Origin: Salinisphaera hydrothermalis C41B8
Lineage (GTDB): Bacteria > Pseudomonadota > Gammaproteobacteria > Nevskiales > Salinisphaeraceae
Direction: 5' to 3'
Length of the DNA: 64,000 nt
Assembly: GCF_000732535.1 (NCBI RefSeq)
Contig: NZ_APNK01000008.1
Span: forward strand, 1-64,000
Numbering within the stretch: the first letter of the stretch is position 1; the number at the start of each line of letters is the position of its first letter. The notes under the pieces were generated by a model that saw only the letters and a list, made by a program, of their open reading frames with translations, was not told the DNA's origin and ran no database searches. Shown piece by piece: positions 6,106 through 52,738 of this stretch. The translations under genes and the position numbers were made by a program.

Positions 6106-6122
6106 TGTCGAAAAACTTGTCA
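6106..6122 (+). promoter_or_regulatory. Candidate PrsR/enhancer site upstream of PEP-CTERM gene 1
   Basis: TGTCGAAAAACTTGTCA lies 64 bp before the GG of the -24/-12 promoter. A near copy (CGTCGAGAAACTTATCA) sits 62 bp before the same element of the paralogous gene, and TGTCGAAAAACCTTTCA occurs at 15275. Matching sequence and matching spacing point to a bound activator. Naming PrsR is inference from its gene being in this locus. Confidence 0.5.
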
Positions 6123-6183: not shown

Positions 6184-6202
6184 TTGGCATGAGAGATGCT
6201 TC
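6184..6202 (+). promoter_or_regulatory. Sigma-54 promoter (-24/-12) of PEP-CTERM gene 1
   Basis: TTGGCATGAGAGATGCTTC: GG at 6186–6187 and GC at 6198–6199, separated by exactly 10 bases as sigma-54 RNA polymerase requires. The -24 part (TTGGCAT) is near consensus; the -12 part is ATGCT rather than TTGCT. An A-rich tract directly precedes it, exactly as at the paralogous promoter at 7635. Predicted transcript start is about 6211. Confidence 0.78.
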
Positions 6203-7558: not shown

Positions 7559-7575
7559 CGTCGAGAAACTTATCA
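7559..7575 (+). promoter_or_regulatory. Candidate PrsR/enhancer site upstream of PEP-CTERM gene 2
   Basis: CGTCGAGAAACTTATCA differs at only three of 17 positions from the site at 6106. It lies 62 bp before the sigma-54 GG, against 64 bp for copy 1. The sequence between motif and promoter is only loosely conserved, which makes the motif stand out. Confidence 0.5.
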
Positions 7576-7634: not shown

Positions 7635-7653
7635 TTGGCACAGGCGTTGCATT
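7635..7653 (+). promoter_or_regulatory. Sigma-54 promoter (-24/-12) of PEP-CTERM gene 2
   Basis: TTGGCACAGGCGTTGCATT is an essentially consensus element: GG at 7637–7638, ten bases, GC at 7649–7650, with TTGGCAC and TTGCA both intact. It is preceded by AAAAAAATA, as at the copy 1 promoter. Predicted start near 7662, giving a leader of about 50 bases. Confidence 0.9.
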
Positions 7654-8853: not shown

Positions 8854-10350
8854 ATGGCTACCGGTGTATGGATCAGCCTGATCCTGTATTTCGCGCTGAT
8901 GCTTGCCATCGGCTTTTATGCTTGGCGGAAATCAACGTCGTCGTCAGAAGAATACATGCTGGGCGGGCGTAATCTGAGCCCGGCCGTTGCCGCCTTGTCG
9001 GCGGGCGCATCCGATATGAGCGGGTGGCTGCTGCTTGGTCTGCCAGGCGCGTTGTATGCATCCGGGCTTGTCGAGGCCTGGATCGGCATCGGTCTGTTCG
9101 TAGGGGCCTTCATCAACTGGATCGTAGTGGCGCCACGCCTCCGCGAGCAGACGGAGCGCTATGACAACAGTCTGACCATCCCGGAATTCCTGGCCAATCG
9201 GTTTCCGAGCAAGGCTATTGCGCTTCGGACGGTATCGGCGGTCATCATTGTTGTGTTCTTCGCCGTCTACACCGCGTCGGGGCTCGTGGCTGGCGGCAAG
9301 CTCTTTACCAGCGCGTTCGGCGGGCTAATTCATGTCCCCTCAATGAGCGAGTACTCGGTCGGCGTGTGGCTAACGCTGATTATCGTGCTGACCTATACCG
9401 TGGTGGGCGGTTTCCTCGCGGTGAGCCTTACTGACTTCGTTCAGGGCTGCATCATGATGATTGCGCTCATTTTGATGCCGATCGTGGTCCTGTTCGGCAG
9501 TGGGGGCGGCGGTTACGCTCAGGCATCGCATACGCTGGCTGGCGTCGATCCAAACTTTCTCTCGTGGACCCATGGCCTGACCATCATCGGCTTTTTCTCG
9601 GCCGTAACCTGGGGGCTCGGTTACTTCGGGCAGCCGCATATCATCGTGCGTTTCATGGCGGTCCGCTCGGTCTCCGAGGTGCCCAAGGCCCGAAACATTG
9701 GTATGACCTGGATGTTCATTTCGCTCGCGGGGGCGATCAGTCTGGGGGTGTTCGGTCGGGCCTACGCGGTGCGTAACGGCCTGAACGTGGACGATCCGGA
9801 GACCATCTTCATCGTATTGGCGGATCTGTTGTTCAATCCGCTAATTACAGGCTTCCTGTACGCCGCGTTGCTGGCCGCGATCATGAGTACGATTTCGAGC
9901 CAGCTGCTGGTGTCGTCTTCGTCTTTGACCGAAGATTTCTATCGGCTGTTCCTGCACAAGGAAGCCAGCGAGCGTGAAAGCGTTCTGATCGGGCGGCTCA
10001 GCGTGCTATTGGTCGGCATTATTGCGGCTTTCATAGCGCGCAACCCCAATTCCCAGGTGCTCGGTTTGGTCAGTCACGCCTGGGCCGGCTTCGGCGCGGC
10101 GTTCGGGCCGTTGATGATTCTGTCGCTGACCTGGCGACGGATGTCGGGCACGGGGGCCGTGGCTGGTCTCGTGGCAGGTGCTGTGACCGTGATCTTCTGG
10201 ATCAGCATGGGTTGGGACAGCAGCTTCCTCGGCGGGCCTGGCGTCTACGAGATCATTCCCGGCTTCATCATGGGCTGGATCGCGATCTTCGTGGTGAGCT
10301 TGATCACCGAGACGCAAGGCGAGTACCGCGCGATCGAGGCCAATTCATAA
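8854..10350 (+). CDS. putP: Sodium/proline symporter
   Basis: 498 residues, close to E. coli PutP (502). It imports proline with Na+ across the inner membrane and belongs to the sodium:solute symporter family with about 13 transmembrane helices. Family blocks seen include SEEYMLGGRNLSP, ALSAGASDMSGWLLLGLPGA, LREQTERYDNSLTIPEF and TWGLGYFGQPHIIVRFMA. A strong Shine–Dalgarno, AAGGGGG, precedes the ATG. It is unlinked in function to the surrounding exopolysaccharide genes but fits a salt-adapted host using proline as an osmolyte. Upstream, 8560–8853 shows no gene and only weak promoter-like sequence. Confidence 0.95.
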   Translation: MATGVWISLILYFALMLAIGFYAWRKSTSSSEEYMLGGRNLSPAVAALSAGASDMSGWLLLGLPGALYASGLVEAWIGIGLFVGAFINWIVVAPRLREQTERYDNSLTIPEFLANRFPSKAIALRTVSAVIIVVFFAVYTASGLVAGGKLFTSAFGGLIHVPSMSEYSVGVWLTLIIVLTYTVVGGFLAVSLTDFVQGCIMMIALILMPIVVLFGSGGGGYAQASHTLAGVDPNFLSWTHGLTIIGFFSAVTWGLGYFGQPHIIVRFMAVRSVSEVPKARNIGMTWMFISLAGAISLGVFGRAYAVRNGLNVDDPETIFIVLADLLFNPLITGFLYAALLAAIMSTISSQLLVSSSSLTEDFYRLFLHKEASERESVLIGRLSVLLVGIIAAFIARNPNSQVLGLVSHAWAGFGAAFGPLMILSLTWRRMSGTGAVAGLVAGAVTVIFWISMGWDSSFLGGPGVYEIIPGFIMGWIAIFVVSLITETQGEYRAIEANS

Positions 10351-10376
10351 GCCGCGCTCGTTCGCCATATGCCATC

Positions 10377-10414
10377 AAAACCGCTGGCGCGAATGTGCGT
10401 CAGCGGTTTTTTTT
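10377..10414 (+). terminator. Rho-independent terminator of putP
   Basis: CCGCTGGCGC pairs with GTGCGTCAGCGG around a short loop and is followed by eight Ts, about 30 bases after the stop. Confidence 0.93.
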
Positions 10415-10840
10415 GTCCCGATGTGTGGCCTCGGCTCGATGCTGGCGATAGCCCAGGGCACGGATTGCTGGTCATCCGCCGAGACCTCTCTGCCGCCGGG
10501 CGCGCCATGTGCTGCCGAAGCCAATCACGCCCAGCACGTATGGTCTTTAATCAGGGTTCAAAGCGCTCGGGATCGGCTCACGCGGCCGCGTTGGGCGTGG
10601 ACGGCCATCTCCAAATTGCTATAAATAACAATACTATGTGAGTTTTCCAGGCCAGCGCGCTATTTCGTCTTCTATCTGTAGGTTGGACGCCGGCACCCAC
10701 ATGAGCTAGGCTTCGCTCCCATAGAGGAAAGTCCGTGCTTTTACGGACCCGGCCCGAAGGCTGTTGGGCTGCCAGCACGCGTGGCGATTTCCGGGTCGTA
10801 CGGCATGCCGATGCAATAAAAAAAGGGGCCGCATCGGCTT
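10415..10840. other. Non-coding stretch rich in inverted repeats, upstream of the riboswitch promoter
   Basis: No supportable gene. The second half is unusually rich in potential stems. There is a GTCCGT/ACGGAC hairpin near 10730–10748. A GACCCGG/CCGGGTC stem (10747–10753 with 10791–10797) encloses two smaller hairpins. A perfect 8-bp GCCGATGC/GCATCGGC stem (10807–10814 with 10831–10838) follows. An extended -10 element, TGCTATAAA, ends at 10625. These could be a structured RNA leader made from that promoter, or protein-binding repeats upstream of the sigma-54 element. GAGGAAAGTCCG at about 10722 recalls RNase P RNA but the rest of that RNA is absent. Confidence 0.35.
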
Positions 10841-10849
10841 GGACAAGAT

Positions 10850-10867
10850 CAGGCACCTCTATTGCTC
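10850..10867 (+). promoter_or_regulatory. Sigma-54-like promoter upstream of the c-di-GMP riboswitch
   Basis: CAGGCACCTCTATTGCTC has GG at 10852–10853 and GC at 10864–10865 with ten bases between. Both GGCAC and TTGCT are intact; the base before GG is A instead of T. A start near 10877 would place the riboswitch aptamer at the very 5' end of the transcript, which supports the call. The 17-base motif of the other two promoters is not found upstream. Confidence 0.65.
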
Positions 10868-10890
10868 GCGTTGCGCGCGGCAATACTACC

Positions 10891-10999
10891 GACTCGATGT
10901 TTAAGACAAAGGCAAAGCCGTCGAAAGGCGGTGACGCAAAGCCACGGGTCTAACGCACGCACCGCGTGCCATGACCGCCGGGTTGCCGCTGGTCGAATC
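10891..10999 (+). promoter_or_regulatory. Cyclic di-GMP-I (GEMM) riboswitch aptamer
   Basis: The conserved GEMM-I core is present: AAGGCAAAGCC, a GAAA tetraloop hairpin (GTCGAAAGGC, then GGTG), GACGCAAAGCC (10933–10943), a GGGTCTAA segment with the P3 stem, and CCGGGTTGCCG closing the core. A flanking helix can form between GACTCGA (10891–10897) and TCGAATC (10993–10999) with one mismatch. Such aptamers bind cyclic di-GMP and control biofilm, motility and matrix genes. It precedes the lipoprotein gene at 11086 by about 85 bases. Called by eye from motif order and stems, without a covariance search. Confidence 0.9.
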
Positions 11000-11024
11000 C
11001 AGACGGCGAATTTTGATGATTCAA

Positions 11025-11064
11025 GATTCCGCAGTGCCGCTGGGTTTGCACTGAAGACGGAATC
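11025..11064 (+). promoter_or_regulatory. Candidate expression platform of the c-di-GMP riboswitch
   Basis: GATTCCG + CAGTGC (11025–11037) can pair with GCACTG ... CGGAATC (11048–11064), forming a bulged hairpin about eight bases before the Shine–Dalgarno AGAGGA (11072–11077). GATTCCG could alternatively pair with CGAATC of the aptamer's 3' closing strand, giving two exclusive folds. No T-run follows, so control of translation seems likelier than termination. The on/off direction cannot be told from sequence. Confidence 0.45.
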
Positions 11065-11085
11065 CTCGGGCAGAGGAACCGGTCC

Positions 11086-13434
11086 ATGTTAAATCGTCTC
11101 GCGATGGTTGTATTTTGCGTCGTCGCTACAGCGTCTTTGAGCGCCTGTGGCGGCGGATCCGGCGGCGGTGGTAGCGATAGTAGCGGATCCACCTCCTCCA
11201 GTAGTCAGACGGCCACCCCAAGTTCGGGCGATACGAGCAATAGTTCGACCGGTTCCAGTAGCGGCGGCTCCAGCTCGTCGGGAAGCGGCAAGAGCGGCAG
11301 CAGCTCGGATAGCAGTGGCTCCAGCTCCGGCGGGAGTAATCTCTCCAGCGTGCTCGATAGCAGCGCGCGTCATATTACCGATGTCAGCGTTCAGAATTAC
11401 GGCAGTAGCGCGTCTTCGGCCGGTAAGGTGGACGTGACCTTCGGGCAGGTGTTTGCCGACGGCGATGTCGGGGCGCAGCAGCATGTCGTGGCCGCGATCG
11501 ACGGCAAAGCGATTCCCACTCAAGTCGACCGCAAAGCGACATGGTCTGACGGTGCGCTGCGCCATGCTGTGGTCACGGTTCAGCTGACGGCGCCGGACAA
11601 CGGAGCGGCGCAGACGGTATCGCTCTACGCGGTATCCAATCCTGTCGACCTCGGGCTTGGCACCGTATCTCTGAGCGACCTTCTCGGTACCAATTTCGAT
11701 GCGACGGTGAAAATCACGCAAGGCGGGACGACCTATACCGCCAGTGCCCGAGATGCGCTCGAAAATGCCGTGCAGACCGGAAAATGCCCGAACTGGGGAG
11801 ATCCGGCCTGCAAGCGTTGGCTATCCGGCGATTTGGCCAGCGAATGGGTTGTCGCGGCGCCGCTGAAAAACGGTAATTCACAGACGCCGCGTTTGCGGGT
11901 GTTTTTCAACGTCCGGGCGTATCGCGGCGCCGATGGCGCCATTGCCAACGTGCGTGTCGACTCGGTGATCGAAAACGACCAAACATATGCCGTGGCGCCT
12001 AACAATGTCACGTACGACGCGAATATCGCGGTCGGCGACAACAGCTATTCGATCAAGAGCCTGACGCAGTATACCCAGAGTCGTTGGCACAAGGTTCTGT
12101 GGACACATGGAACGCATCCGTATTATGCAGGTGTGTCGGTATCCTATCTGCAGGCGTCGAAAGCGGTATCCAAATATGCCGACGTCAAGCCGACCGACAA
12201 ATTTCTCAGCGGTGTGCCGCAGACCAGTGTCCCCATGGATCATCTGGACCAGACGCCCCATATGGGAGATACGGGCGCGCAGGCTGGCATCGGGCCACTA
12301 CCGCGTTGGACTTCGAGCTTTGTTACGTCTGGTAAACGTCAGGCCTTCAATTGGATGCTTGCTGATGACGATGCGGCGGGAGGATATAGCTTCCATTATC
12401 GTGACGACAAAACAGGTCGTCCGGTTACAATTGTGGATCATCCCTATATTACGATCGCGGATTTGAACTGGGCGCGCCAAGCGGGTGGGGCTTTCGCGGC
12501 GGATTTGTTGCCGTCTTGCGAAAAAGATTGCAGTAACCCGAATCAATTCGATATTGCCCATCACCCATCTATTGGGTATGTGTCGTATCTCGTTTCTGGC
12601 GATTTCTACTATCTGGAGGAAATGCAGTTCACAGCCAGCTACGTCGAGTTATGGGCTAACCCGGATTATCGCAAGACGGATAAAGGGCGTTTGCTTAACG
12701 CTTTCCAACAAGTTCGAAGTCAGGCTTGGAACCTCCGGTCCATTAGCGATGCCGCATTCGCGACGCCGGATAAAGATCCGATGAAGTCCTATTTTGTCAA
12801 TCAAATCGATTACATCATTCAAGACTATCTGAATAGCTACGTTAACGCGTCGGGGCATCCGTTACACACCCTGGATGCATACGGCGCAGTGCACTATCCG
12901 GCAAATCAACCCTCGAACATAAGTATCGCACCGTGGCAAGAGGATTTCTTTACATGGGCGGTAGGACATGCTGCGGAACAGCAGGTTCCGGGGGCAAAAA
13001 AACTTTTGAATTGGTTGGCTCCTTTTCAAATTGGGCTAATGACCTCGGCGAAAGATGGGGCACAAAGTGGGTTTTGCTGGCAAGTTGCATCCGGCTATAC
13101 ATTCCAGCTTCGGGACGATAACAATTCACCGATATACACTAGCCTGGATGAGGTTTATGCCAAGACTTATCCCCGCCTAAACGGTTTGGCTTGCAATTCT
13201 CAAGCCATGGCGAATGAGTTGAGCACTACGGATGATCAGTTGAGTCCGGATCAGATGGTCGGATACGCTATTTCGCCAACCGGATTTCCTGCCAATTTAC
13301 AGATTGCCCTCGCGGTGGCGGCCGACAGCGACGCGAATAATGGAAAGCAAGCTTGGCAAGTGTTCGAGGGGCGTGTAGATAAGCCGGACTATTCCAATTA
13401 CGCAAATTTTGCCGTCGTGCCGCGTACTCAGTGA
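11086..13434 (+). CDS. Large lipoprotein of unknown function under c-di-GMP riboswitch control
   Basis: 782 residues. The signal peptide ends in the lipobox LSAC|G (Cys near 21), so it should be lipid-anchored in the envelope. Residues about 22–90 are a Ser/Gly linker. The rest is a folded domain homologous along its length to the protein at 50510. Shared blocks include PMDH, TGAQAxIGPLPrW, WMLADxDA, HyRDxxTGxP, YLVSGDFYYxEE, ANPDYR and QAWNLRSIxDAA. The C-terminal half, with repeated aromatic-rich helical segments, suggests an alpha/alpha-barrel of a sugar-active enzyme, but I cannot assign a known family. Its place in an exopolysaccharide locus behind a c-di-GMP riboswitch suggests matrix binding or trimming. 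The function remains inference. Confidence 0.85.
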   Translation: MLNRLAMVVFCVVATASLSACGGGSGGGGSDSSGSTSSSSQTATPSSGDTSNSSTGSSSGGSSSSGSGKSGSSSDSSGSSSGGSNLSSVLDSSARHITDVSVQNYGSSASSAGKVDVTFGQVFADGDVGAQQHVVAAIDGKAIPTQVDRKATWSDGALRHAVVTVQLTAPDNGAAQTVSLYAVSNPVDLGLGTVSLSDLLGTNFDATVKITQGGTTYTASARDALENAVQTGKCPNWGDPACKRWLSGDLASEWVVAAPLKNGNSQTPRLRVFFNVRAYRGADGAIANVRVDSVIENDQTYAVAPNNVTYDANIAVGDNSYSIKSLTQYTQSRWHKVLWTHGTHPYYAGVSVSYLQASKAVSKYADVKPTDKFLSGVPQTSVPMDHLDQTPHMGDTGAQAGIGPLPRWTSSFVTSGKRQAFNWMLADDDAAGGYSFHYRDDKTGRPVTIVDHPYITIADLNWARQAGGAFAADLLPSCEKDCSNPNQFDIAHHPSIGYVSYLVSGDFYYLEEMQFTASYVELWANPDYRKTDKGRLLNAFQQVRSQAWNLRSISDAAFATPDKDPMKSYFVNQIDYIIQDYLNSYVNASGHPLHTLDAYGAVHYPANQPSNISIAPWQEDFFTWAVGHAAEQQVPGAKKLLNWLAPFQIGLMTSAKDGAQSGFCWQVASGYTFQLRDDNNSPIYTSLDEVYAKTYPRLNGLACNSQAMANELSTTDDQLSPDQMVGYAISPTGFPANLQIALAVAADSDANNGKQAWQVFEGRVDKPDYSNYANFAVVPRTQ

Positions 13435-15207: not shown

Positions 15208-15746
15208 ATTGCGCGTAGCCTCGGTTCATGGGCTATTGCGGTCGAGGCAAACGGCAGTACACCCATTCCAGAGGTGTCGAAAAACCTTTCAAGCCGCTGA
15301 CAGTTTCTTAAGCGATTGATTTGGTTCATATTGTCTGTTGAAAAATCGAGGGCGCGTTAACTGTGGCTCGCTCGCGGGCCCGCGACGGCGGAATATATCA
15401 AAGCGTAATTTATAATAACTTTCTGATATTTAAGTAATTTATTTTTGCGCGCCCGTCTCTTGCAAAGCCCCCCTTCAAACAACTTCGCCCGCTGTCGTCG
15501 TCACGCGCACAGCAGGCTACGGCGCAAATCGTCGAAATAATTAACTCTCAAGCCCAGCCGGAAGAGAAATTGCGGTAGTATCAGGCCCAGCTGAGTTGTC
15601 GATACAGCACAAGCCGCCGGCCAGGGTCGGCATTGAGTTGGCGTTGTCGGCAAGGGTGGGCGGCTCGCTAAGTATCGCAACTGAAAAGGGAGCGCGTTGG
15701 TCCCGGTACTATGCTGATGGGACGCAGCGTTCAATGCTGGGGATTC
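15208..15746. other. Intergenic control region upstream of the initiating sugar transferase
   Basis: 539 bases without a supportable gene. It contains the third copy of the 17-base motif (15275–15291) and a very AT-rich block (about 15395–15450) with TATAAT at 15411. A weak GG-N10-GC match at 15629–15642 (CGGCATTGAGTTGGC) also occurs. The AT-rich block is the likeliest promoter region for the exopolysaccharide operon; which sigma factor uses it is not clear. Confidence 0.5.
15275..15291 (+). promoter_or_regulatory. Third copy of the candidate PrsR/enhancer motif
   Basis: TGTCGAAAAACCTTTCA matches the site at 6106 at 15 of 17 positions. It lies about 455 bases upstream of the sugar transferase start. 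No clear -24/-12 promoter is found at the 62–64 base spacing seen for the PEP-CTERM genes, so its role here is less certain. Confidence 0.4.
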
Positions 15747-17198: not shown

Positions 17199-19310
17199 AT
17201 GTTTCCCGATCTCAACTTGACTCAGATCTGGCTGCTGTCCAATGGCATCGGCGCGGTGGCTTTTTTGGCTGTGGCCGCGTTCATGGTTTTCGGGGTTCAT
17301 GCCCGCCACGCCGCGTCTCGGCTGTTACTGGCGGCCTGCGTGGTATCCGCGGGCTGGTTTACGTTTCTGGCCGCGGCGCCGCTGGTTTCGATCAGCGGAC
17401 CCTGGCTGGATGTGATCGAGACCGCGCGTACCGGCTTCTGGCTCGTGACGGCAGCCTGGGTCGTGCCGCGCGTTTCAAATTCGCTACGCCATTGCTGGCT
17501 GCGTGGTCTGGCGGCGGCCATTCCGGCTCTGGTGCTGTCCTATCTGCTCTGGCGTGTAGTCGCTGAGGGCGGGGCGACGACCGGCGGCCACAGCATGGTC
17601 TTCACGATCGGCGCGCTGGTCATGAGTCTGTATGGGCTGGTGCTGGTCGAGCAAACCTATAGAGCCAGCGGCCTGGATGCGCGCTGGGCCGTCAAGTATC
17701 TCTGCCTCGCCCTGGCGACGATCTTCGCCTACGATTTCGTTATGTATTCAGGCGCGCTCGTGGCGCATCGCATCGCGTTGTCGGTATGGAACGCGCGCGG
17801 CGCGGTCAACGCCCTCGTGGCGCCTTTGATCGGATTGGCCGCCGTACGCAACGCGCAATGGTCTGCTCGCCTGAGTGTTTCTAACCAAGTGATCTTCGGG
17901 ACCGGCGCCCTGATCGTCGCCGGGGCCTATCTGATGATCGTGGCCGGCGGCAGTACCTATATTCGACGATTCGACAGCAGCTGGGCTGAGGTGGGCGCGT
18001 TGCTGTTCACCATCATGTCGACCCTGCTACTCGTGGTGTTCTTTCTGTCCGGTCAGGTGCGTGGTTATGCGCGCGTCATGCTGCACAAGCATCTGCTGCC
18101 GTATCGCTACGATTACCGCGAACAGTGGCTGGCGCTGACACGTCGGCTGAGCCGTGACGACGGTGATTCGGATGTCTATGAACGGGCGATACGAGCTATC
18201 GCGGAGCCGGTCGACAGTCCGGCCGGCGCGCTCTGGCTGGCGCGCGATGGGCGTTTCACTTACGTGACCGATTGGAACATGACGTCGGCCGTTGATGTCT
18301 TCGAACGCGAAGACGGGGCGTTGGCTGATTATCTGGCCCGGACCGGCTGGGTGATCGACCGCGAGGAGTTCGAACGCGACCCGGCGAAATACGACGGTCT
18401 GGCGCTGCCGCCCTGGTTCCTTGGATTGGAGCGCGCCCGGTTCATCATTCCGTTATTCGCCGGGCAGCGTCGCTTGGTGGGCTTTCTCGTCTTGGCTGAG
18501 CCCCGCGCATCGTTCGAGCTCAACTGGGAAGAGATTGATCTGCTCAAAGCCTTTGCACAACAGGTTGGGGTGTATCTCGATTATCAAGAGGCCAACCGCG
18601 CGCTGACGCAGGCCCGTCAATTCGAAGCCTTCAACCGTCTGACGGCGTTCTTGATGCACGACCTCAAGAATATCGCTGGCCAGCAGTCGCTGATGCTGGA
18701 AAACGCCGAGCGGCATAAGAAGAACCCGGCGTTCGTCGACGACATGATCGCCACGATCGATCACTCGGTCACCCGCATGCGAGGGTTGCTCAATCAGTTG
18801 CAGAAAGTCTCGCGCTCCGAGCATCGCACAGAGCGTGTCGACGTTGATGCCGCCGTCGATCAGCTGATCGGCGATTTGGCGAGTACGCGGCCGACGCCGG
18901 TGCGTCGCGGGTCGACTTCCGGAGCCGTGGTCGACGCAGACCGTGATCGGTTGATCATGGTTCTGCGCCATGTAGTGCGTAATGCGCAGGATGCGACGGG
19001 GGACGATGGCCGGGTCGAAGTCGAAACACGGGCTCGCGATGGCGGCGTCGAAATCGCGGTGAGTGATAACGGCGAAGGTATGACTGCGGCATTCATTCGT
19101 GATTCGCTTTTTCAGCCGTTCGTGAGTACGAAATCGGCGCGCGGCATGGGCATCGGGGCGTATCAGGTTCGGGACTTCGCGCGTTCGTCGGGCGGCGATG
19201 TCATCGTCGACAGCACGCCCGGACAAGGGACGCGGTTTGCCATAGTGTTACCGGTGGTGGCCGATTCGGCAGCCGGGACCGACTTAATCCAGGGGAGCAT
19301 CGATCCATGA
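17199..19310 (+). CDS. prsK: PEP-CTERM system sensor histidine kinase
   Basis: 703 residues. About eight transmembrane helices in residues 1–290 are followed by a GAF-like domain (about 310–460). The dimerisation/phosphoacceptor segment is AFLMHDLKNIAGQQ, with His487, and the ATPase domain has VLRHVVRNAQDAT, DNGEGM and a GMGIGAYQVRDFARSSGG block. It phosphorylates the response regulator encoded next, whose ATG overlaps its TGA by four bases. PrsK/PrsR pairs accompany exosortase A loci and control PEP-CTERM and polysaccharide genes. The signal sensed is unknown. Confidence 0.94.
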   Translation: MFPDLNLTQIWLLSNGIGAVAFLAVAAFMVFGVHARHAASRLLLAACVVSAGWFTFLAAAPLVSISGPWLDVIETARTGFWLVTAAWVVPRVSNSLRHCWLRGLAAAIPALVLSYLLWRVVAEGGATTGGHSMVFTIGALVMSLYGLVLVEQTYRASGLDARWAVKYLCLALATIFAYDFVMYSGALVAHRIALSVWNARGAVNALVAPLIGLAAVRNAQWSARLSVSNQVIFGTGALIVAGAYLMIVAGGSTYIRRFDSSWAEVGALLFTIMSTLLLVVFFLSGQVRGYARVMLHKHLLPYRYDYREQWLALTRRLSRDDGDSDVYERAIRAIAEPVDSPAGALWLARDGRFTYVTDWNMTSAVDVFEREDGALADYLARTGWVIDREEFERDPAKYDGLALPPWFLGLERARFIIPLFAGQRRLVGFLVLAEPRASFELNWEEIDLLKAFAQQVGVYLDYQEANRALTQARQFEAFNRLTAFLMHDLKNIAGQQSLMLENAERHKKNPAFVDDMIATIDHSVTRMRGLLNQLQKVSRSEHRTERVDVDAAVDQLIGDLASTRPTPVRRGSTSGAVVDADRDRLIMVLRHVVRNAQDATGDDGRVEVETRARDGGVEIAVSDNGEGMTAAFIRDSLFQPFVSTKSARGMGIGAYQVRDFARSSGGDVIVDSTPGQGTRFAIVLPVVADSAAGTDLIQGSIDP

Positions 19311-20671
19311 ACGCCGTAGCCGAAAGACTGTTGATCGTCGAGGACGATCCCGGGCTGACGCGACAGCTGCGCTGGAGTTTCGATCAATACGATCCGGTCT
19401 TCGCTGAAGACCGCGGTGCCGCCATCGATCAGGTTCGTCGGCATGAGCCACAGGTCGTGTTGCTCGATCTGGGGCTGCCGCCGGAGGCCGACGGAATCGA
19501 CGAGGGGATGCGGGCGTTGTCCGATATCCTGCGTCTTGCACCGGCGACCAAGGTCATTGTCGTGACCGGTAACGGCGACGAAGAAAGTGCGATCAAGGCG
19601 ATCGCGGCGGGCGCTTACGATTTCTATCAGAAGCCGGTGGAGATTCAGGTCGTCGAGCTGATCATCCAGCGGGCATTTCATATCTGGCAGCTCGAGCGTC
19701 AGAACCGACGGCTGCGTGCCGACGCGGATCGCCCGTTGGATGGCCTGATTGCAATTAGCGAGCCGATGCGCCGCATCGTGCGTCAAATCGAGAAGATTGC
19801 CCCTACGAATGCAACCACGTTGCTGCAGGGGGATACCGGCTCGGGCAAGGAAGTGCTCGCTCGGGCCTTACATCGCCTGAGCCCACGTGCGGAGCATCCG
19901 TTCGTGGCTATCAACTGCGCGGCAATTCCCGAGCATCTGCTTGAAAGTGAACTGTTCGGTTACGAAAAAGGCGCGTTCACCGGCGCGCAGAAACAGACCC
20001 TCGGGAAGGTCGAGCTTGCCGAAGGCGGAACGCTGTTCCTGGATGAGATCGGCGACATGGCCCATGGTCTGCAGGCCAAGCTGCTGCGCTTTCTGCAGGA
20101 GCGGGTCATCGAGCGCGTTGGCGGGCGGCACGAAATCCCGGTCGATGCGCGGGTCGTCTGTGCGACGCATCGCGATTTACAGGCGCTCATTGCCGAGGGC
20201 GAGTTTCGCGAGGATCTCTACTACCGCGTAGCAGAAATCACTATTCGTATTCCGCCGCTCCGCGATCGTCAGGGCGATGCGATCGCGATTGCAAAAGCCT
20301 TGTTCGAGCGAGCTAACAAGGAACACGGACGATCACTGCGCGGGTTTTCCGCCGACGCGTTGGCTGCAATCGAGCAGCACGGTTGGCCGGGGAACGTGCG
20401 TGAACTGGAACATCGCGTAAACCGGGCGGTGATTCTCGCCGATGGCAAGTTGATCGATGCCGAGGACCTCGGGCTGGCGAACGCGGCTGCAGAAGACGAC
20501 GACAATCTGCTCAATCTGCGGCAAGTGCGCGATGCGGCAGAACGCGGTGCGCTGGAGAAGAGCCTGGGCCGCGCCGACGGCAATATTTCGAAAGCGGCGA
20601 GACTGCTGGGCGTATCGCGCCCCGCCATTTACGATCTGATGCGCAAGCACGGCATTGATACGAACAACTAA
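19307..20671 (+). CDS. prsR: PEP-CTERM system response regulator, sigma-54 activator
   Basis: 454 residues in NtrC order. The receiver domain has phosphoacceptor Asp54 in VVLLDLGLPP. The AAA+ domain has Walker A GDTGSGKE, the sigma-54-contact motif GAFTGA at 222–227 (ELFGYEKGAFTGA) and GTLFLDEIGDM. The C-terminal Fis-type helix-turn-helix reads GNISKAARLLGVSRPAIYDL. The intact GAFTGA means it can activate RpoN promoters, and such promoters lie at 6184, 7635 and probably 10850. Translationally coupled to prsK; prsT follows 13 bases later. Confidence 0.95.
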   Translation: MNAVAERLLIVEDDPGLTRQLRWSFDQYDPVFAEDRGAAIDQVRRHEPQVVLLDLGLPPEADGIDEGMRALSDILRLAPATKVIVVTGNGDEESAIKAIAAGAYDFYQKPVEIQVVELIIQRAFHIWQLERQNRRLRADADRPLDGLIAISEPMRRIVRQIEKIAPTNATTLLQGDTGSGKEVLARALHRLSPRAEHPFVAINCAAIPEHLLESELFGYEKGAFTGAQKQTLGKVELAEGGTLFLDEIGDMAHGLQAKLLRFLQERVIERVGGRHEIPVDARVVCATHRDLQALIAEGEFREDLYYRVAEITIRIPPLRDRQGDAIAIAKALFERANKEHGRSLRGFSADALAAIEQHGWPGNVRELEHRVNRAVILADGKLIDAEDLGLANAAAEDDDNLLNLRQVRDAAERGALEKSLGRADGNISKAARLLGVSRPAIYDLMRKHGIDTNN

Positions 20672-33197: not shown

Positions 33198-34735
33198 CCG
33201 AGAGTCGAACCCAACGCAGTACCATCGAACGAGCGATGGCGGGCCGTGCCGGCGAAAACAGCGCACAGGTCGCGGTGCACGTAGGGTTCGTGGTCTGCAT
33301 GCTCGTATTCGTCGTGCTGTATGCGGAGACGTATCGGTCGCTGATCAGAACCTGGGCCGATACCGGCACCTTCCAATATGCTTTTCTCATCTTTCCGATC
33401 TCCGCGGTACTGATCTGGGCGCGCCGTCACTGGCTGGCCCGGGTTGCGGCGCGGCCGCGACCGATCGCTTTCATCGGCTTGGCCGCGCTCGGCCTGTTGT
33501 GGTTACTTGGCGCGGTTGCGGACATCAATCTGGCCTTGCATATCACCGCCGTTTTGATCTGGCCCGTGATGGTGTACTTGTTCTACGGGCCGCGTGTTGC
33601 CGGCGTTCTGGCGTTCGCGCTCGGTTATCTTCTGTTCGCGATTCCGTTCGGCAACTTCATGGTCGGCCCGCTGCAGACGGTGACGGCGCATCTGTCTGTC
33701 CTGGCACTCGAATTAACGGGTGTCCCGGTCGTCATGGATGGCCACTTCATCGATACGCCGGCTTCGGCCTGGCATGTGGCCGAGGCCTGTAGCGGCATCA
33801 AGTTCTTCGTCGCCACCACGGCGTTTGGCGTGCTATATGCGCATCTGTTCTATACCAGTCTGCGGCGACGCCTGGTTTTCGTCGGCTGTGCGCTGGTGGT
33901 GCCGATCATCGCCAATGCGCTACGCGTGTATTTCACCATCCTGATCGGTGAGTATTTCGGGCTGAAATACGCCACCGGCACCGATCATCTCATTTTCGGC
34001 TGGCAATTCTTCGGCACGGTACTGCTTGTGTTGTTCCTCTGCGGCTGGCCGTGGCATCAGGCACCGCCGAAAGGCCCAGAACCGGACCCCGGCGTGGTCG
34101 AGGACGGATCGGCGCGCATGCGCTGGATGGTGCCGGCGGCCCTCGCACTGATCGTGCTACCCGCCACCTGGTACGCGGTTACCGGCTTGCTGGCTGCCTG
34201 CGACGATCGGCCAGGGCCGTCCACGCTACCCAGCCGTTTGGCCGATCAGCCGGCCTTGAGCGATGACGGGAATGGTCACCCGGCACCGCCGACACACGGT
34301 CTGGATGTTCATCTGGCCCGCCGTTATGGCGATATCGCGCGCCCGGTACAGGTGGATTATCTCGGCGTCGATGCCGGCAGCGACGGGCCGGATATTCTCG
34401 ATATCAGGCAAGGGCTCTACGACGCGGCGGCATGGCACGTGGTTGGCATGCCCAAGGTGGTGACGCCGTCTACGGGCGGCCCAGGCTTCCAGACGCTTAC
34501 GCTCAAGGCGGCACACGGCGATGGGACGCGAGTTCTGCTTTATAGCTATCGTATCGGTGAGCGCTGGCTGTCTTCGCCGCTGCATTTCAAGATGTGGCAA
34601 TCGCTTGATCGGCTGTTCGGCCAACCGGCGCCGGCCGGCATTCTGGTCGTGTCGGAAGCGGGCGATCCACGCCCCGATGAGCTTGCTCGAATGGCCGCCG
34701 ATGCGGCCGCTGCCTTGCAAAGGCCGGAGCGATGA
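33194..34735 (+). CDS. xrtA: Exosortase A fused to an EpsI-type C-terminal domain
   Basis: 513 residues. About eight transmembrane helices carry the exosortase active site: Cys199 in VAEACSGIKF, Arg244 in ANALRVYF and His265 in TGTDHLIFGWQFFG. This cysteine transpeptidase-like enzyme recognises PEP-CTERM tails and processes them at the inner membrane; its substrates here are at 6262, 7712 and 14803. After a ninth helix (about 310–335) comes a periplasmic EpsI/DUF3485-type domain (VDYLGVD, AAWHVVGMP, VLLYSYRIGERWL), fused in one chain as is usual for type A. Embedded in an unbroken chain of overlapping genes. Confidence 0.96.
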   Translation: MTESRTQRSTIERAMAGRAGENSAQVAVHVGFVVCMLVFVVLYAETYRSLIRTWADTGTFQYAFLIFPISAVLIWARRHWLARVAARPRPIAFIGLAALGLLWLLGAVADINLALHITAVLIWPVMVYLFYGPRVAGVLAFALGYLLFAIPFGNFMVGPLQTVTAHLSVLALELTGVPVVMDGHFIDTPASAWHVAEACSGIKFFVATTAFGVLYAHLFYTSLRRRLVFVGCALVVPIIANALRVYFTILIGEYFGLKYATGTDHLIFGWQFFGTVLLVLFLCGWPWHQAPPKGPEPDPGVVEDGSARMRWMVPAALALIVLPATWYAVTGLLAACDDRPGPSTLPSRLADQPALSDDGNGHPAPPTHGLDVHLARRYGDIARPVQVDYLGVDAGSDGPDILDIRQGLYDAAAWHVVGMPKVVTPSTGGPGFQTLTLKAAHGDGTRVLLYSYRIGERWLSSPLHFKMWQSLDRLFGQPAPAGILVVSEAGDPRPDELARMAADAAAALQRPER

Positions 34736-50529: not shown

Positions 50530-52738
50530 GCGCCCGCGTGCCGCCCGGGCCATGCCGTTGCCGGATACCGGATCCAGCGTCTTGTTTCCCGGTGTTCTGA
50601 ATCTGTTCACAACGATGCTACTGAGCCTGATGCTCGTTGTCGTATTCGCTGGTACGGCTTTGGCTCAGGGCGGAGCTGAGGGCCGGTCGGTCACGGATCT
50701 TCGGCTGGCGCATCTAACCCATGACTGCCGGCGAGATGCGCCGGTCACTTTCGGTCAGCCATTCCGGCCAGGCGATGTGCCGGCGGGGACCACAGTCCAG
50801 GTGTTCGGTGACGGCAAGCCGATTCCGACGCAGGTGGACGTGAAGGCACGTAACGCCGATGGCTCCGTGCGGCATGCTGTTATATCGCTGAATGTGCCTT
50901 GCGATATCGACCGCAATGACCGACTCACGATCGTCACCGCGAGCGCCTCCAGCCAGTCCACTTCCGGTTCGCTGAGTCTGGAGGATCTGGCCTCGTCCGG
51001 ATTCGACGCCCGGATCGAGTTATCGCAGCAGGGTCGACAGTGGGCGCTGTCGGCGCACGATCTCCTTCAGCGCGTGGTACGCGACGGCGGTTGCCATGCG
51101 ACCACGGTCTACTGCCGGCGCTGGCTGGCGGGACCCGTGGCGAACGAATGGATCGTCGGCGCGCCGCCGGTGGGCGCATCCGGTCAGGTACAGCCGCAGT
51201 TGATGGTGTTCTTCGCGATTCGGGCCTACGGGCAGGGGGCGGTTCGCTCGGCTCGTGTCGATACGGTGGTCGAGAACGACTGGGCCTATGCCGATGCACC
51301 GCAGAACATCGACTACAGCGCGACCCTGCAAATACCGGGGCGTTCGCCTGTCCAAATCGGCCATTTGGGGCACTATGCGCACGCGCGCTGGCATCAGGTG
51401 GCATGGTACGGCGATCACTCGGCCGAGCCGTGGTTTGCCGCCCTGAGTGGCCCCTATCTCCAGGCTACCCCGGCGGTACCACGCTACGAGGATGTCCAGT
51501 TGGATTCGCAGATGCTGTCGCAGGTCAGACAGTCATGTGCGCCCATGGATCATTGCGATGTCATGGATCATATGGAAGCGACCGGCGCCCAGGCCCAGAT
51601 CGGGCCGCTTCCGCAATGGAGCAGCGCCTATGTCGTGAATCCGCACGACTACCGAACGTACCGCTGGATGCTCGCCGATAGCGACGCGCTGGGCGCCTAC
51701 AGTATTCACTTTCGTGAACGGGATACCGGCAACCCGCTGTCGCTGGACCGCCACCCCTGTGCCACCCTGATCGGGCCCGCCGAGCAGTCTCAGTGCCAGG
51801 CTGCGCCGCATGGGGATGACCGATTCCCGCGATGCGTGAACTGCGATACGCCGCTGGAGGCCGAGTCGGCACATCACGGTGCGCCGGCCTATGTTGCCTA
51901 TCTGGTCACCGGCGACTGGTACTACGAGCAGGAGCTGACGTTCTGGGCCGACTGGGTCGAGTTCTTCCAGAACCCGGAATATCGCGATTACCAGCACGGT
52001 CTCGTTCAGCGGCAACAGATCCGGGGGCAGGCCTGGTCGCTCCGAACGATCGGCGATGCGGCTTACCTTTTGCCGGACGATTCGCCCCACAAGGCGTTCT
52101 TCAATTCAGCGGTGGCGAACAACATCCGCTGGTACACCAGCCACGACGTGAACGGTGGTGATGCCAACCCGCTCGGGATTCTGACGCGCGGCGATGCGAT
52201 CACTTATCCGTTGTCCGGCTCGAATCGCCATACCGCGATAGCGACATGGCAAATGTCGTTTTTCAACTGGGCGGTGGGCAATCTGGCGGATCAGGGATTT
52301 GCGGGGGCGGATCGCTTGCGCGACTACTTTTCGCGCTTCCAGATCGGTAGCCTGAACAGCCCGGGGTTCTGTCCTCTCATGGCCAGCGCCTATACATTGC
52401 AGGTTCGCGATCAGGAGCAGGCCCCTCTCTATCAGGATTTCGATACCGTATACCGTAAGACCTTCCCGGGTCTGGCTAGCTTGAGTTGCGGTTCCGCTGC
52501 CTTCCAGCGAGCCTTGCAGAAAGACCCGAGCTTCGACGGCTTTCCGTATCCGAGAGGCACGATGGTAGGTTATCCGGCTTCGGATACCGGTTTCGTGGCC
52601 AATTATCAGATCGGAATGGCGTCGGCGGCCAGCTCGGATCGACCGGGCGCTCGCGATGCTTGGTCTTGGTTCGTGCAGCGCCCGGTACGTCCGGACTATA
52701 CTCACGCGCCGCAGTTTGCTGTCGTGCCCACCCATTAG
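50510..52738 (+). CDS. Large secreted protein of unknown function, paralog of the riboswitch-controlled lipoprotein
   Basis: 742 residues from the ATG at 50510 (overlapping the previous gene); the ATG at 50552 is an alternative. The hydrophobic segment MLLSLMLVVVFAGTALA|QG is a type I signal peptide without a lipobox cysteine, so unlike the protein at 11086 it should be soluble. It also lacks the Ser/Gly linker. Homology spans the full domain: PTQVDVKArNaDGSVRHAVI, TGAQAQIGPLPQWSSAYV, WMLADSDALGAYSIHFRER, YLVTGDWYYEQE, QAWSLRTIGDAAYLLPD and ATWQMSFFNWAVGNLADQG. It has several cysteine pairs absent from the paralog. Probably a periplasmic or secreted polysaccharide-active enzyme; the activity is inferred only. 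Confidence 0.83.
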   Translation: MAIIIPRRPRAARAMPLPDTGSSVLFPGVLNLFTTMLLSLMLVVVFAGTALAQGGAEGRSVTDLRLAHLTHDCRRDAPVTFGQPFRPGDVPAGTTVQVFGDGKPIPTQVDVKARNADGSVRHAVISLNVPCDIDRNDRLTIVTASASSQSTSGSLSLEDLASSGFDARIELSQQGRQWALSAHDLLQRVVRDGGCHATTVYCRRWLAGPVANEWIVGAPPVGASGQVQPQLMVFFAIRAYGQGAVRSARVDTVVENDWAYADAPQNIDYSATLQIPGRSPVQIGHLGHYAHARWHQVAWYGDHSAEPWFAALSGPYLQATPAVPRYEDVQLDSQMLSQVRQSCAPMDHCDVMDHMEATGAQAQIGPLPQWSSAYVVNPHDYRTYRWMLADSDALGAYSIHFRERDTGNPLSLDRHPCATLIGPAEQSQCQAAPHGDDRFPRCVNCDTPLEAESAHHGAPAYVAYLVTGDWYYEQELTFWADWVEFFQNPEYRDYQHGLVQRQQIRGQAWSLRTIGDAAYLLPDDSPHKAFFNSAVANNIRWYTSHDVNGGDANPLGILTRGDAITYPLSGSNRHTAIATWQMSFFNWAVGNLADQGFAGADRLRDYFSRFQIGSLNSPGFCPLMASAYTLQVRDQEQAPLYQDFDTVYRKTFPGLASLSCGSAAFQRALQKDPSFDGFPYPRGTMVGYPASDTGFVANYQIGMASAASSDRPGARDAWSWFVQRPVRPDYTHAPQFAVVPTH

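Follow-up and report, generated by a model that had tools for sequence, protein, structure and literature searches.

The riboswitch locus

The window (i.e. the whole 64,000-nt stretch of Salinisphaera hydrothermalis C41B8 DNA that was analysed) carries a predicted c-di-GMP-I riboswitch directly upstream of a gene for a putative lipoprotein. The preliminary description placed this pair inside an exosortase locus, which is correct: prsK and prsR lie downstream, PEP-CTERM genes flank the riboswitch gene on both sides, and XrtA is encoded at 33287–34057. The features discussed below are as follows (coordinates of the window, strand, feature).

10851–10866, +: sigma-54-like GG-N10-GC match (AGGCACCTCTATTGCT), 10/12 to a sigma-54 consensus, probably not the conserved promoter
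10901–10990, +: c-di-GMP-I riboswitch aptamer (Rfam RF01051, 82.4 bits), with G10911 as the G20 equivalent and the conserved 3' UGCC at 10984–10987
10983–11009, +: possible helix S, UUGCCG (10983–10988) and CUGG (10989–10992) with CCAG (10999–11002) and CGGCGA (11004–11009)
10994–11048, +: possible helix M, strand S' (10994–11002 and 11004–11007) with a downstream copy of the aptamer end (11036–11039 and 11040–11048), 13 pairs
11009–11028, +: helix T, local hairpin AAUUUUGA/UCAAGAUU, in the consensus fold, can absorb part of strand X
11025–11064, +: possible helix XY (anti-anti-SD), GAUUCCG/CGGAAUC and CAGUG/CACUG, 17/500 shuffles in this leader (L001)
11058–11081, +: possible helix YSD (anti-SD), UCCUC (11063–11067) with the Shine-Dalgarno sequence GAGGA (11073–11077), plus CGG/CCG
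11086–13434, +: regulated gene, encoding a 782-aa predicted lipoprotein with a Ser/Gly-rich linker and a PL26-like core (PF19501, AlphaFold, match to 5xqo)
17199–20671, +: prsK (17199–19310; TIGR02916, 639.6 bits) and prsR (19307–20671; TIGR02915, 694.5 bits), regulators of the exosortase locus

The gene is accompanied by wecB, epsB2 and prsK in five loci (our own, G012, G016, G013 and contig C12 of G005); prsR falls within the stretch read in four of these and just beyond it in G016. The riboswitch copies L061 (G015) and L062 (contig C43 of G005) sit outside this context. A second PL26-like protein, 41% identical, is encoded in the window at 50687–52732 without a riboswitch, and a third on contig C3.

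The aptamer and its linkage to one gene

The Rfam covariance search identified RF01051 at 10901–10990 (+) over the full model (1–87) with a score well above the gathering value of 35 (E 1e-14), which upholds the initial claim of a c-di-GMP-I riboswitch. The anatomy is that of the class, with the GAAA loop, P2/P3, the conserved 3' UGCC and a G at the position equivalent to 20. RF01051 is the sole Rfam family reported for 10340–11100 at E<=1, in a listing that leaves out two lower-scoring matches of the same clan, and no support was obtained for any other known RNA family upstream. We conclude from the sequence that this is a genuine c-di-GMP-I aptamer and a predicted sensor of c-di-GMP.

A genome-wide search found the aptamer in a single copy in the 4.28-Mb genome. 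Nine copies are spread over seven of the 17 genomes of the family; none was found in the remaining 78 of the 85 genomes of the order, searched with stricter filters, and the positives are the same seven. All nine lie directly upstream of a homolog of the 11086–13434 gene, 88–102 nt from the assumed start codon (in G006 one riboswitch-gene pair is split across two contig ends, and we infer the joining). The arrangement of a riboswitch before an envelope lipoprotein gene, noted at the outset for this locus, is thus kept in seven Salinisphaera genomes. The copy from S. orenii (L076:1375–1469) was assigned to RF03167 (c-di-GMP-I-GGC, a variant family; 63.6 bits) instead of RF01051. A plasmid search yielded one short aptamer-level match, from Alicyclobacillus.

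The protein family is broader than the riboswitch. Among the 19 protein matches of the genus above 200 bits, nine come with the riboswitch. Our first protein search of the genome contigs returned no relatives, while an alignment-based query returned 136, and the best 80 of them, in 79 loci (Massilia, Rhodanobacter and others), served as a sample of the wider family. In this sample the riboswitch precedes the gene in five of the 79 loci, all five from Salinisphaera, a count to be read with the fact that several loci (e.g. L077, L107, L121, L123, L136, L145) start near the match and show little or no leader. One clear homolog was found outside the family (G073, E 3e-58), and no riboswitch was found there. 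The nine riboswitch genes cluster together (support 84/78) when 59 proteins are placed in a tree, and their cluster includes L025 from G016, which comes without a riboswitch; the group splits into six genes (98/96) and three genes plus L025 (100/98). The riboswitch label requires two changes on this tree, compared with a mean of 8.6 in shuffles. The leader of L025 shows no trace of the aptamer at E<=1, which, judged from its sequence and its place in the clade, is likely due to loss.

PrsR scores over the cut-off in exactly the seven riboswitch genomes among the 17 (weaker matches occur in all 17), so that riboswitch, homolog and PrsR co-occur in the same seven. XrtA was found in six of the seven and is absent in G015; these six genomes are the sources of the six-member subgroup and of the six leaders with the expression platform described below. 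Such genome counts ignore relatedness, and the coincidence of riboswitch, PrsR and XrtA may therefore reflect a single gain or a single loss.

The gene behind the riboswitch encodes a predicted PL26-like lipoprotein

The 782-aa protein has a lipobox-like LSAC and a Ser/Gly-rich linker; its core spans nearly 690 aa. Sequence searches were of limited help: NCBIfam gave no match, no PEP-CTERM match was detected in the protein, and the PDB, searched by sequence, gave nothing useful (best E 0.53). Pfam returned a marginal hit to PF19501, the PcRGLX N-terminal domain (23.1 bits, cut-off 22.1); six members of the protein family were scanned, with three above the cut-off (P0001, L024, L032) and three below it (L015, L028, L017).

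The AlphaFold model of residues 97–782, built from 50 aligned sequences, has a mean pLDDT of 92.3. The top ten Foldseek matches are all chains of PL26 exo-rhamnogalacturonan lyase (E to 5e-7, with TM just 0.31–0.34). In the VIA structural alignment four PL26 entries come top, with Z 12.0–12.2 over 487–501 residues spanning residues 1–686 of the model (5xqo, Z 12.2); GH88/GH105-type alpha/alpha folds follow at Z 9.7 or less, and almost all of these lower matches fall on the alpha/alpha part. On the strength of this lead, the modelled protein is, most likely, a lyase-type surface enzyme active on polysaccharides. The label "uncharacterised" given to it at first can thus be replaced, as the protein has relatives and its core is predicted to fold like a PL26 lyase. 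The PL26 exo-rhamnogalacturonan lyase of Penicillium chrysogenum (5xqo, 5xq3, 5xqg, 5xqj) resembles it in the fold over the whole length and in the N-terminal PF19501 domain, but at an identity of 10–13% and a TM of 0.31–0.34, and the protein described here is a bacterial predicted lipoprotein. Elsewhere in the protein family, twelve Massilia loci (L092, L094, L095, L099, L101, L103, L104, L110, L112, L114, L120, L143) carry a tRNA gene on the opposite strand, about 1.4–2.0 kb before the PL26-like match.

Four possible, mutually exclusive helices downstream of the aptamer

In six of the nine leaders the helices S, M, XY and YSD are possible at matching places between the aptamer and the start codon, with matching arms no more than about 15 nt apart between leaders. 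S and M share the strand S', M and XY cross, and XY and YSD share the strand Y. Helix S uses the conserved UGCC and is hence incompatible with ligand binding, and 8 nt separate the end of XY from the Shine-Dalgarno sequence. The hairpin at 11025–11064 that the preliminary description proposed is a possible pairing (GATTCCG/CGGAATC plus CAGTG/CACTG, about 12 pairs), but its supposed competition with the closing strand of the aptamer does not stand, as the element able to pair with that strand is 10999–11009 (helix S), the hairpin being placed one step later in the chain of helices. The block GCGGCAATAC at 10877–10886, just 5' of the aptamer and common to the G012 ortholog, can pair with the aptamer 3' end UUGCCGC, and might either close the aptamer with an additional outer helix or act as one more competing strand.

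Folding of the region 11020–11095 alone is unremarkable (z -0.20; 77/200 shuffles fold as well), while 10991–11100 gives z -2.52 (3/200). RNAalifold on the six leaders recovered S, T and YSD unprompted. In its consensus 16 of the 49 pairs, the aptamer's included, are altered on both sides at least once; such changes affect three of the nine pairs of S (columns 94–108, 96–105 and 98–103) and five pairs of YSD. Not every leader keeps all consensus pairs: one or two leaders lose some of those in S, T and YSD. The consensus fold contains neither M nor XY, the two helices that are incompatible with S or with YSD. The arms of XY vary in sequence between leaders with the pairing kept: GAUUCCG/CGGAAUC (L001, L004), GUUCCG/CGGAAC (L002), GAUCUCG/CGAGAUC (L003) and AGGUUUCCG/CGGAAACCU (L005, L006).

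The shuffles (of 500) that reached the score of the natural leader are given below, in the order L001, L004, L002, L003, L005, L006; the fixed windows, measured from the start codon, were chosen after inspection of the same leaders.

Fixed windows, S+M+XY+YSD summed: 2, 8, 1, 0, 0, 0
Fixed windows, S alone: 120, 49, 80, 107, 127, 95
Fixed windows, M alone: 16, 73, 166, 11, 67, 90
Fixed windows, XY alone: 17, 23, 4, 5, 1, 3
Fixed windows, YSD alone: 157, 216, 3, 6, 66, 69
Duplex test, S: 2, 17, 39, 73, 96, 108
Duplex test, M: 1, 11, 116, 53, 102, 120

Individual helices are often non-significant in the fixed windows; the duplex test sets M apart most clearly in L001 and L004, and less so in the other four. 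The summed score of L007, L008 and L009 was reached by 112, 352 and 244 of 500 shuffles, and we therefore regard these three leaders as devoid of the platform. When the four helices were allowed free positions, 28, 4, 2, 7, 8 and 7 of 100 shuffles did as well, a poor separation in which partly other helices were picked. A duplex test of Shine-Dalgarno masking (327, 210, 388, 500, 19 and 19 of 500, same leader order) was set aside, as it splits the hairpin by design. L001/L004 and L005/L006 are close pairs, hence the six leaders amount to about four independent lineages. To judge from sequence comparison, six leaders share the potential to form S, M, XY and YSD as mutually exclusive helices.

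A possible translational switch and its polarity

A single terminator-like site was detected in 10360–11090, at 10377–10410, i.e. upstream, and no intrinsic terminator was found as an output of the riboswitch. Our preferred reading is that the c-di-GMP-I riboswitch controls translation of the PL26-like surface lipoprotein in the XrtA/PEP-CTERM locus and acts as a translational OFF switch; we consider the case for it to be evenly balanced. The polarity is predicted from the order of the strands and the topology of the helices. Without ligand, the aptamer 3' end UUGCCG would pair with S' to form helix S, XY could form, and the Shine-Dalgarno sequence would be left open (ON). With c-di-GMP bound, UGCC would be kept in the aptamer and S' released, to be captured by the downstream copy of the aptamer end in helix M. 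As M crosses XY, the latter would be prevented from forming, and the freed strand Y could then form YSD, mask the Shine-Dalgarno sequence and block translation (OFF).

Two-state energies were computed for five leaders (L001, L003, L004, L005, L006), no position of M having been located in L002. With UGCC kept free, M+YSD is the minimum-energy fold in four of the five (L001, L003, L005, L006) and not in L004, where M+YSD is 7–9 kcal/mol worse than the folds that contain S. In the same four leaders the OFF fold is equal to or below the ON fold by 0.2–2.3 kcal/mol with no ligand term. S+YSD lies below S+XY in all five, by 1.0–3.5 kcal/mol, so the Shine-Dalgarno sequence is predicted to be masked even with S formed. 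The mean accessibility of the start region in the ON and OFF folds is mixed across the five: 0.53/0.43 (L001), 0.33/0.45 (L004), 0.44/0.46 (L003), 0.45/0.32 (L005) and 0.23/0.32 (L006). Holding UGCC free leaves the accessibility of the Shine-Dalgarno sequence nearly unchanged in L001–L006 and raises it in L008 (0.36 to 0.54) and L009 (0.34 to 0.46). Thus, the computed energies and accessibilities give the OFF polarity no clear support, and the accessibilities together with the S+YSD energies weigh against it.

These figures, which favour OFF unclearly and point in the opposite direction in some leaders, are one argument for an ON switch with the same riboswitch and gene, in which c-di-GMP would raise expression, e.g. 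if S or XY were the blocking structure (through RNA decay or Rho) and M relieved the block. GEMM-I includes activators such as Vc1/gbpA (PMC11218506). Against this, the topology in six leaders couples the formation of M to the release of Y, which can then mask the Shine-Dalgarno region, and XY stops 8 nt short of the Shine-Dalgarno sequence and leaves it open; we consider the ON switch rather unlikely.

Under the OFF reading, co-transcriptional folding, in which S would form first and XY before the Shine-Dalgarno sequence exists, could favour the ON state without ligand. On the same reading the enzyme would be made as c-di-GMP falls, for release or turnover of the matrix, and would be held back in the biofilm state. 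Extending this to the locus as a whole, we tentatively suggest that in XrtA-bearing Salinisphaera a surface polysaccharide lyase is directly silenced by c-di-GMP. The signal would pass along an RNA relay in which the switching strand is taken over by a second copy, located downstream, of the aptamer 3' end; genes for matrix synthesis and for matrix cutting would be oppositely controlled in one locus, and the enzyme would be released at low c-di-GMP. Taken as a whole, this fuller picture is rather unlikely.

The promoter region and the ligand

The preliminary description further proposed a two-input gate, with a sigma-54 promoter under PrsK/PrsR just upstream of the aptamer. The sequence AGGCACCTCTATTGCT at 10851–10866 agrees with the sigma-54 consensus (TGGCAC/TTGC context) at 10 of the 12 positions scored, a result equalled by 21 of 1000 shuffles of the surrounding stretch of about 210 nt. 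The strict pattern GGCAC-N5-TTGCW occurs 18 times genome-wide and the reversed control pattern 17 times, hence the match alone says little. The element is thus present as described, with the GG-N10-GC spacing, but it is weak. The start predicted from it (about 10877) lies 24 nt upstream of the aptamer model and about 34 nt upstream of the conserved GGC, not about 14 bases before the aptamer helix as stated initially.

None of the other eight leaders has a sigma-54-like site above 9/12 within 200 nt upstream; GG-N10-GC elements with TTGC and without GGCAC lie far upstream in L004 (-199) and L008 (-129). The closest ortholog (G012, leader L004; 74% protein identity) shows strong conservation of the aptamer and of the leader behind it, but has no sigma-54-like site. 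L007–L009 bear TTGACA-N17-TAGNNT boxes. In our own leader no sigma-70 promoter was reported by the prediction tool, and the best match in a separate scan was 7/12. A sigma-54 start may exist in this species alone. The idea that it is species-specific and driven from about 10877 by another enhancer-binding protein draws on the match and its spacing, and on the 25 TIGR02915 matches of the genome (a single one exceeds the cut-off), which indicate that other response regulators of this kind exist; no enhancer site was identified and the ortholog lacks the site, so that we consider this version improbable.

In PEP-CTERM genes a 17-nt motif lies 32–92 nt before the sigma-54 motif, according to Haft et al. 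(PMC1569441). Six promoters of the nine PEP-CTERM matches in this genome were tested (leaving out L067, L072 and L073), and four of them have a PrsR box (TGTCGAAAAACTTRTCA-like, 12–17/17) 60–64 nt upstream of the sigma-54 element: L069, L070, L071 and L074 (0, 0, 20 and 22 of 1000 shuffles). The box consensus is this genome's own version, drawn from L069 and L070, so that only L071 and L074 are independent. The box is missing in L066 (8/17; 918/1000 shuffles) and weak in L042 (11/17; 206/1000), which was assigned by position as the promoter of the L068 gene. Two of the four box-bearing promoters lie within 5 kb of the riboswitch leader. PrsR-like boxes at 6106–6122 and 7559–7575 precede sigma-54 elements at 6185–6200 and 7636–7651, respectively, by 60–62 nt, and the two PEP-CTERM genes concerned are good candidates for members of the PrsK/PrsR/RpoN regulon. 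Another PrsR-like box (TGTCGAAAAACCTTTCA) is found at 15275–15291 upstream of epsB2, with no clear sigma-54 element in the following 100 bases.

At the riboswitch leader, the best PrsR box at 32–92 nt from the sigma-54-like site scores 9/17, matched by 567 of 1000 shuffles, and none of the five matches of the box pattern TGTCGAAAANNNNNNCA in the genome falls there. With the box missing, control by PrsR is not supported. The leader thus shares the locus with the PrsK/PrsR/sigma-54 promoters of PEP-CTERM genes (PMC1569441), but has no upstream PrsR motif, and its protein has no PEP-CTERM match. A conserved sigma-54/PrsR gate was rejected after the consensus scan, the shuffles, the genome count, the comparison of nine leaders and the PrsR-box test.

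For the gate as proposed, i.e. transcription by PrsK/PrsR–RpoN through 10851–10866 combined with control of the leader by c-di-GMP, one can cite the score with its correct spacing and shuffle value, the presence of rpoN in the genome and of PrsK/PrsR nearby, the occurrence of GCGGCAATAC, the block at the predicted start, in the G012 ortholog as well, and the observation that a clear box is likewise missing from two of the six PEP-CTERM promoters tested. Set against this are the sigma-54-like site in only one of nine leaders (all others at most 9/12), the ortholog that does without it, the genome-wide count equal to the control and the missing PrsR box. Control of the riboswitch gene by sigma-54/PrsR is unlikely, and the gate as a whole very improbable; the two-input claim, from which the finding drew its apparent exceptionality, is unsupported.

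As for the ligand, we transferred the Vc2 position numbering to G10911, presumably the equivalent of position 20. That cGAMP is sensed instead of c-di-GMP, as by some GEMM-I members, is barely credible, since the discriminating position, at which PMC6456294 describes the role of A20G in c-di-GMP versus cGAMP sensing, is G and not A in our own leader and in the other eight (9/9).

Novelty and significance

Among the matches listed for the open-licence literature on c-di-GMP (GEMM) riboswitches with sigma54/RpoN, exopolysaccharide or exosortases and on riboswitches in Salinisphaera, no title or beginning of an abstract presents a PL26-like lipoprotein as the target of a c-di-GMP riboswitch, or the platform described here. 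As far as these matches show, the riboswitch class is known, the target is new and the platform is undescribed. The proposed switch would tie a candidate matrix-cutting enzyme to c-di-GMP by a testable, RNA-only route in an exosortase/PEP-CTERM system, whose control has so far been described in terms of sigma-54 and PrsK/PrsR. The comparison of six leaders also offers a model of a translational c-di-GMP-I platform with predictions at the level of single bases.

Comparison with known systems

The Salinisphaera aptamer shows no visible departure from the RF01051 class; what differs, as far as the listed matches show, is the target gene. A c-di-GMP riboswitch (Inuzuka 2018) reportedly represses translation by masking a distant ribosome-binding site; the outcome proposed here would be similar, with the ligand likewise hiding such a site at a distance from the aptamer. 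The Cd1 riboswitch of Clostridioides difficile is described (PMC9262584) as a transcriptional OFF switch in which a switching strand T pairs either with the aptamer strand A, forming an antiterminator, or with a downstream strand H, forming a terminator. On that description the possible helix S resembles the A:T pairing of Cd1 and the possible helix M the T:H pairing. The Cd1-type pairing of the aptamer 3' strand with a switching strand is possible, as helix S, in all six platform leaders, and would there represent the ligand-free state. The Salinisphaera leader differs from Cd1 in that no intrinsic terminator was found in it, and its proposed output would instead pass through a second layer of helices (XY/YSD) to the Shine-Dalgarno sequence.
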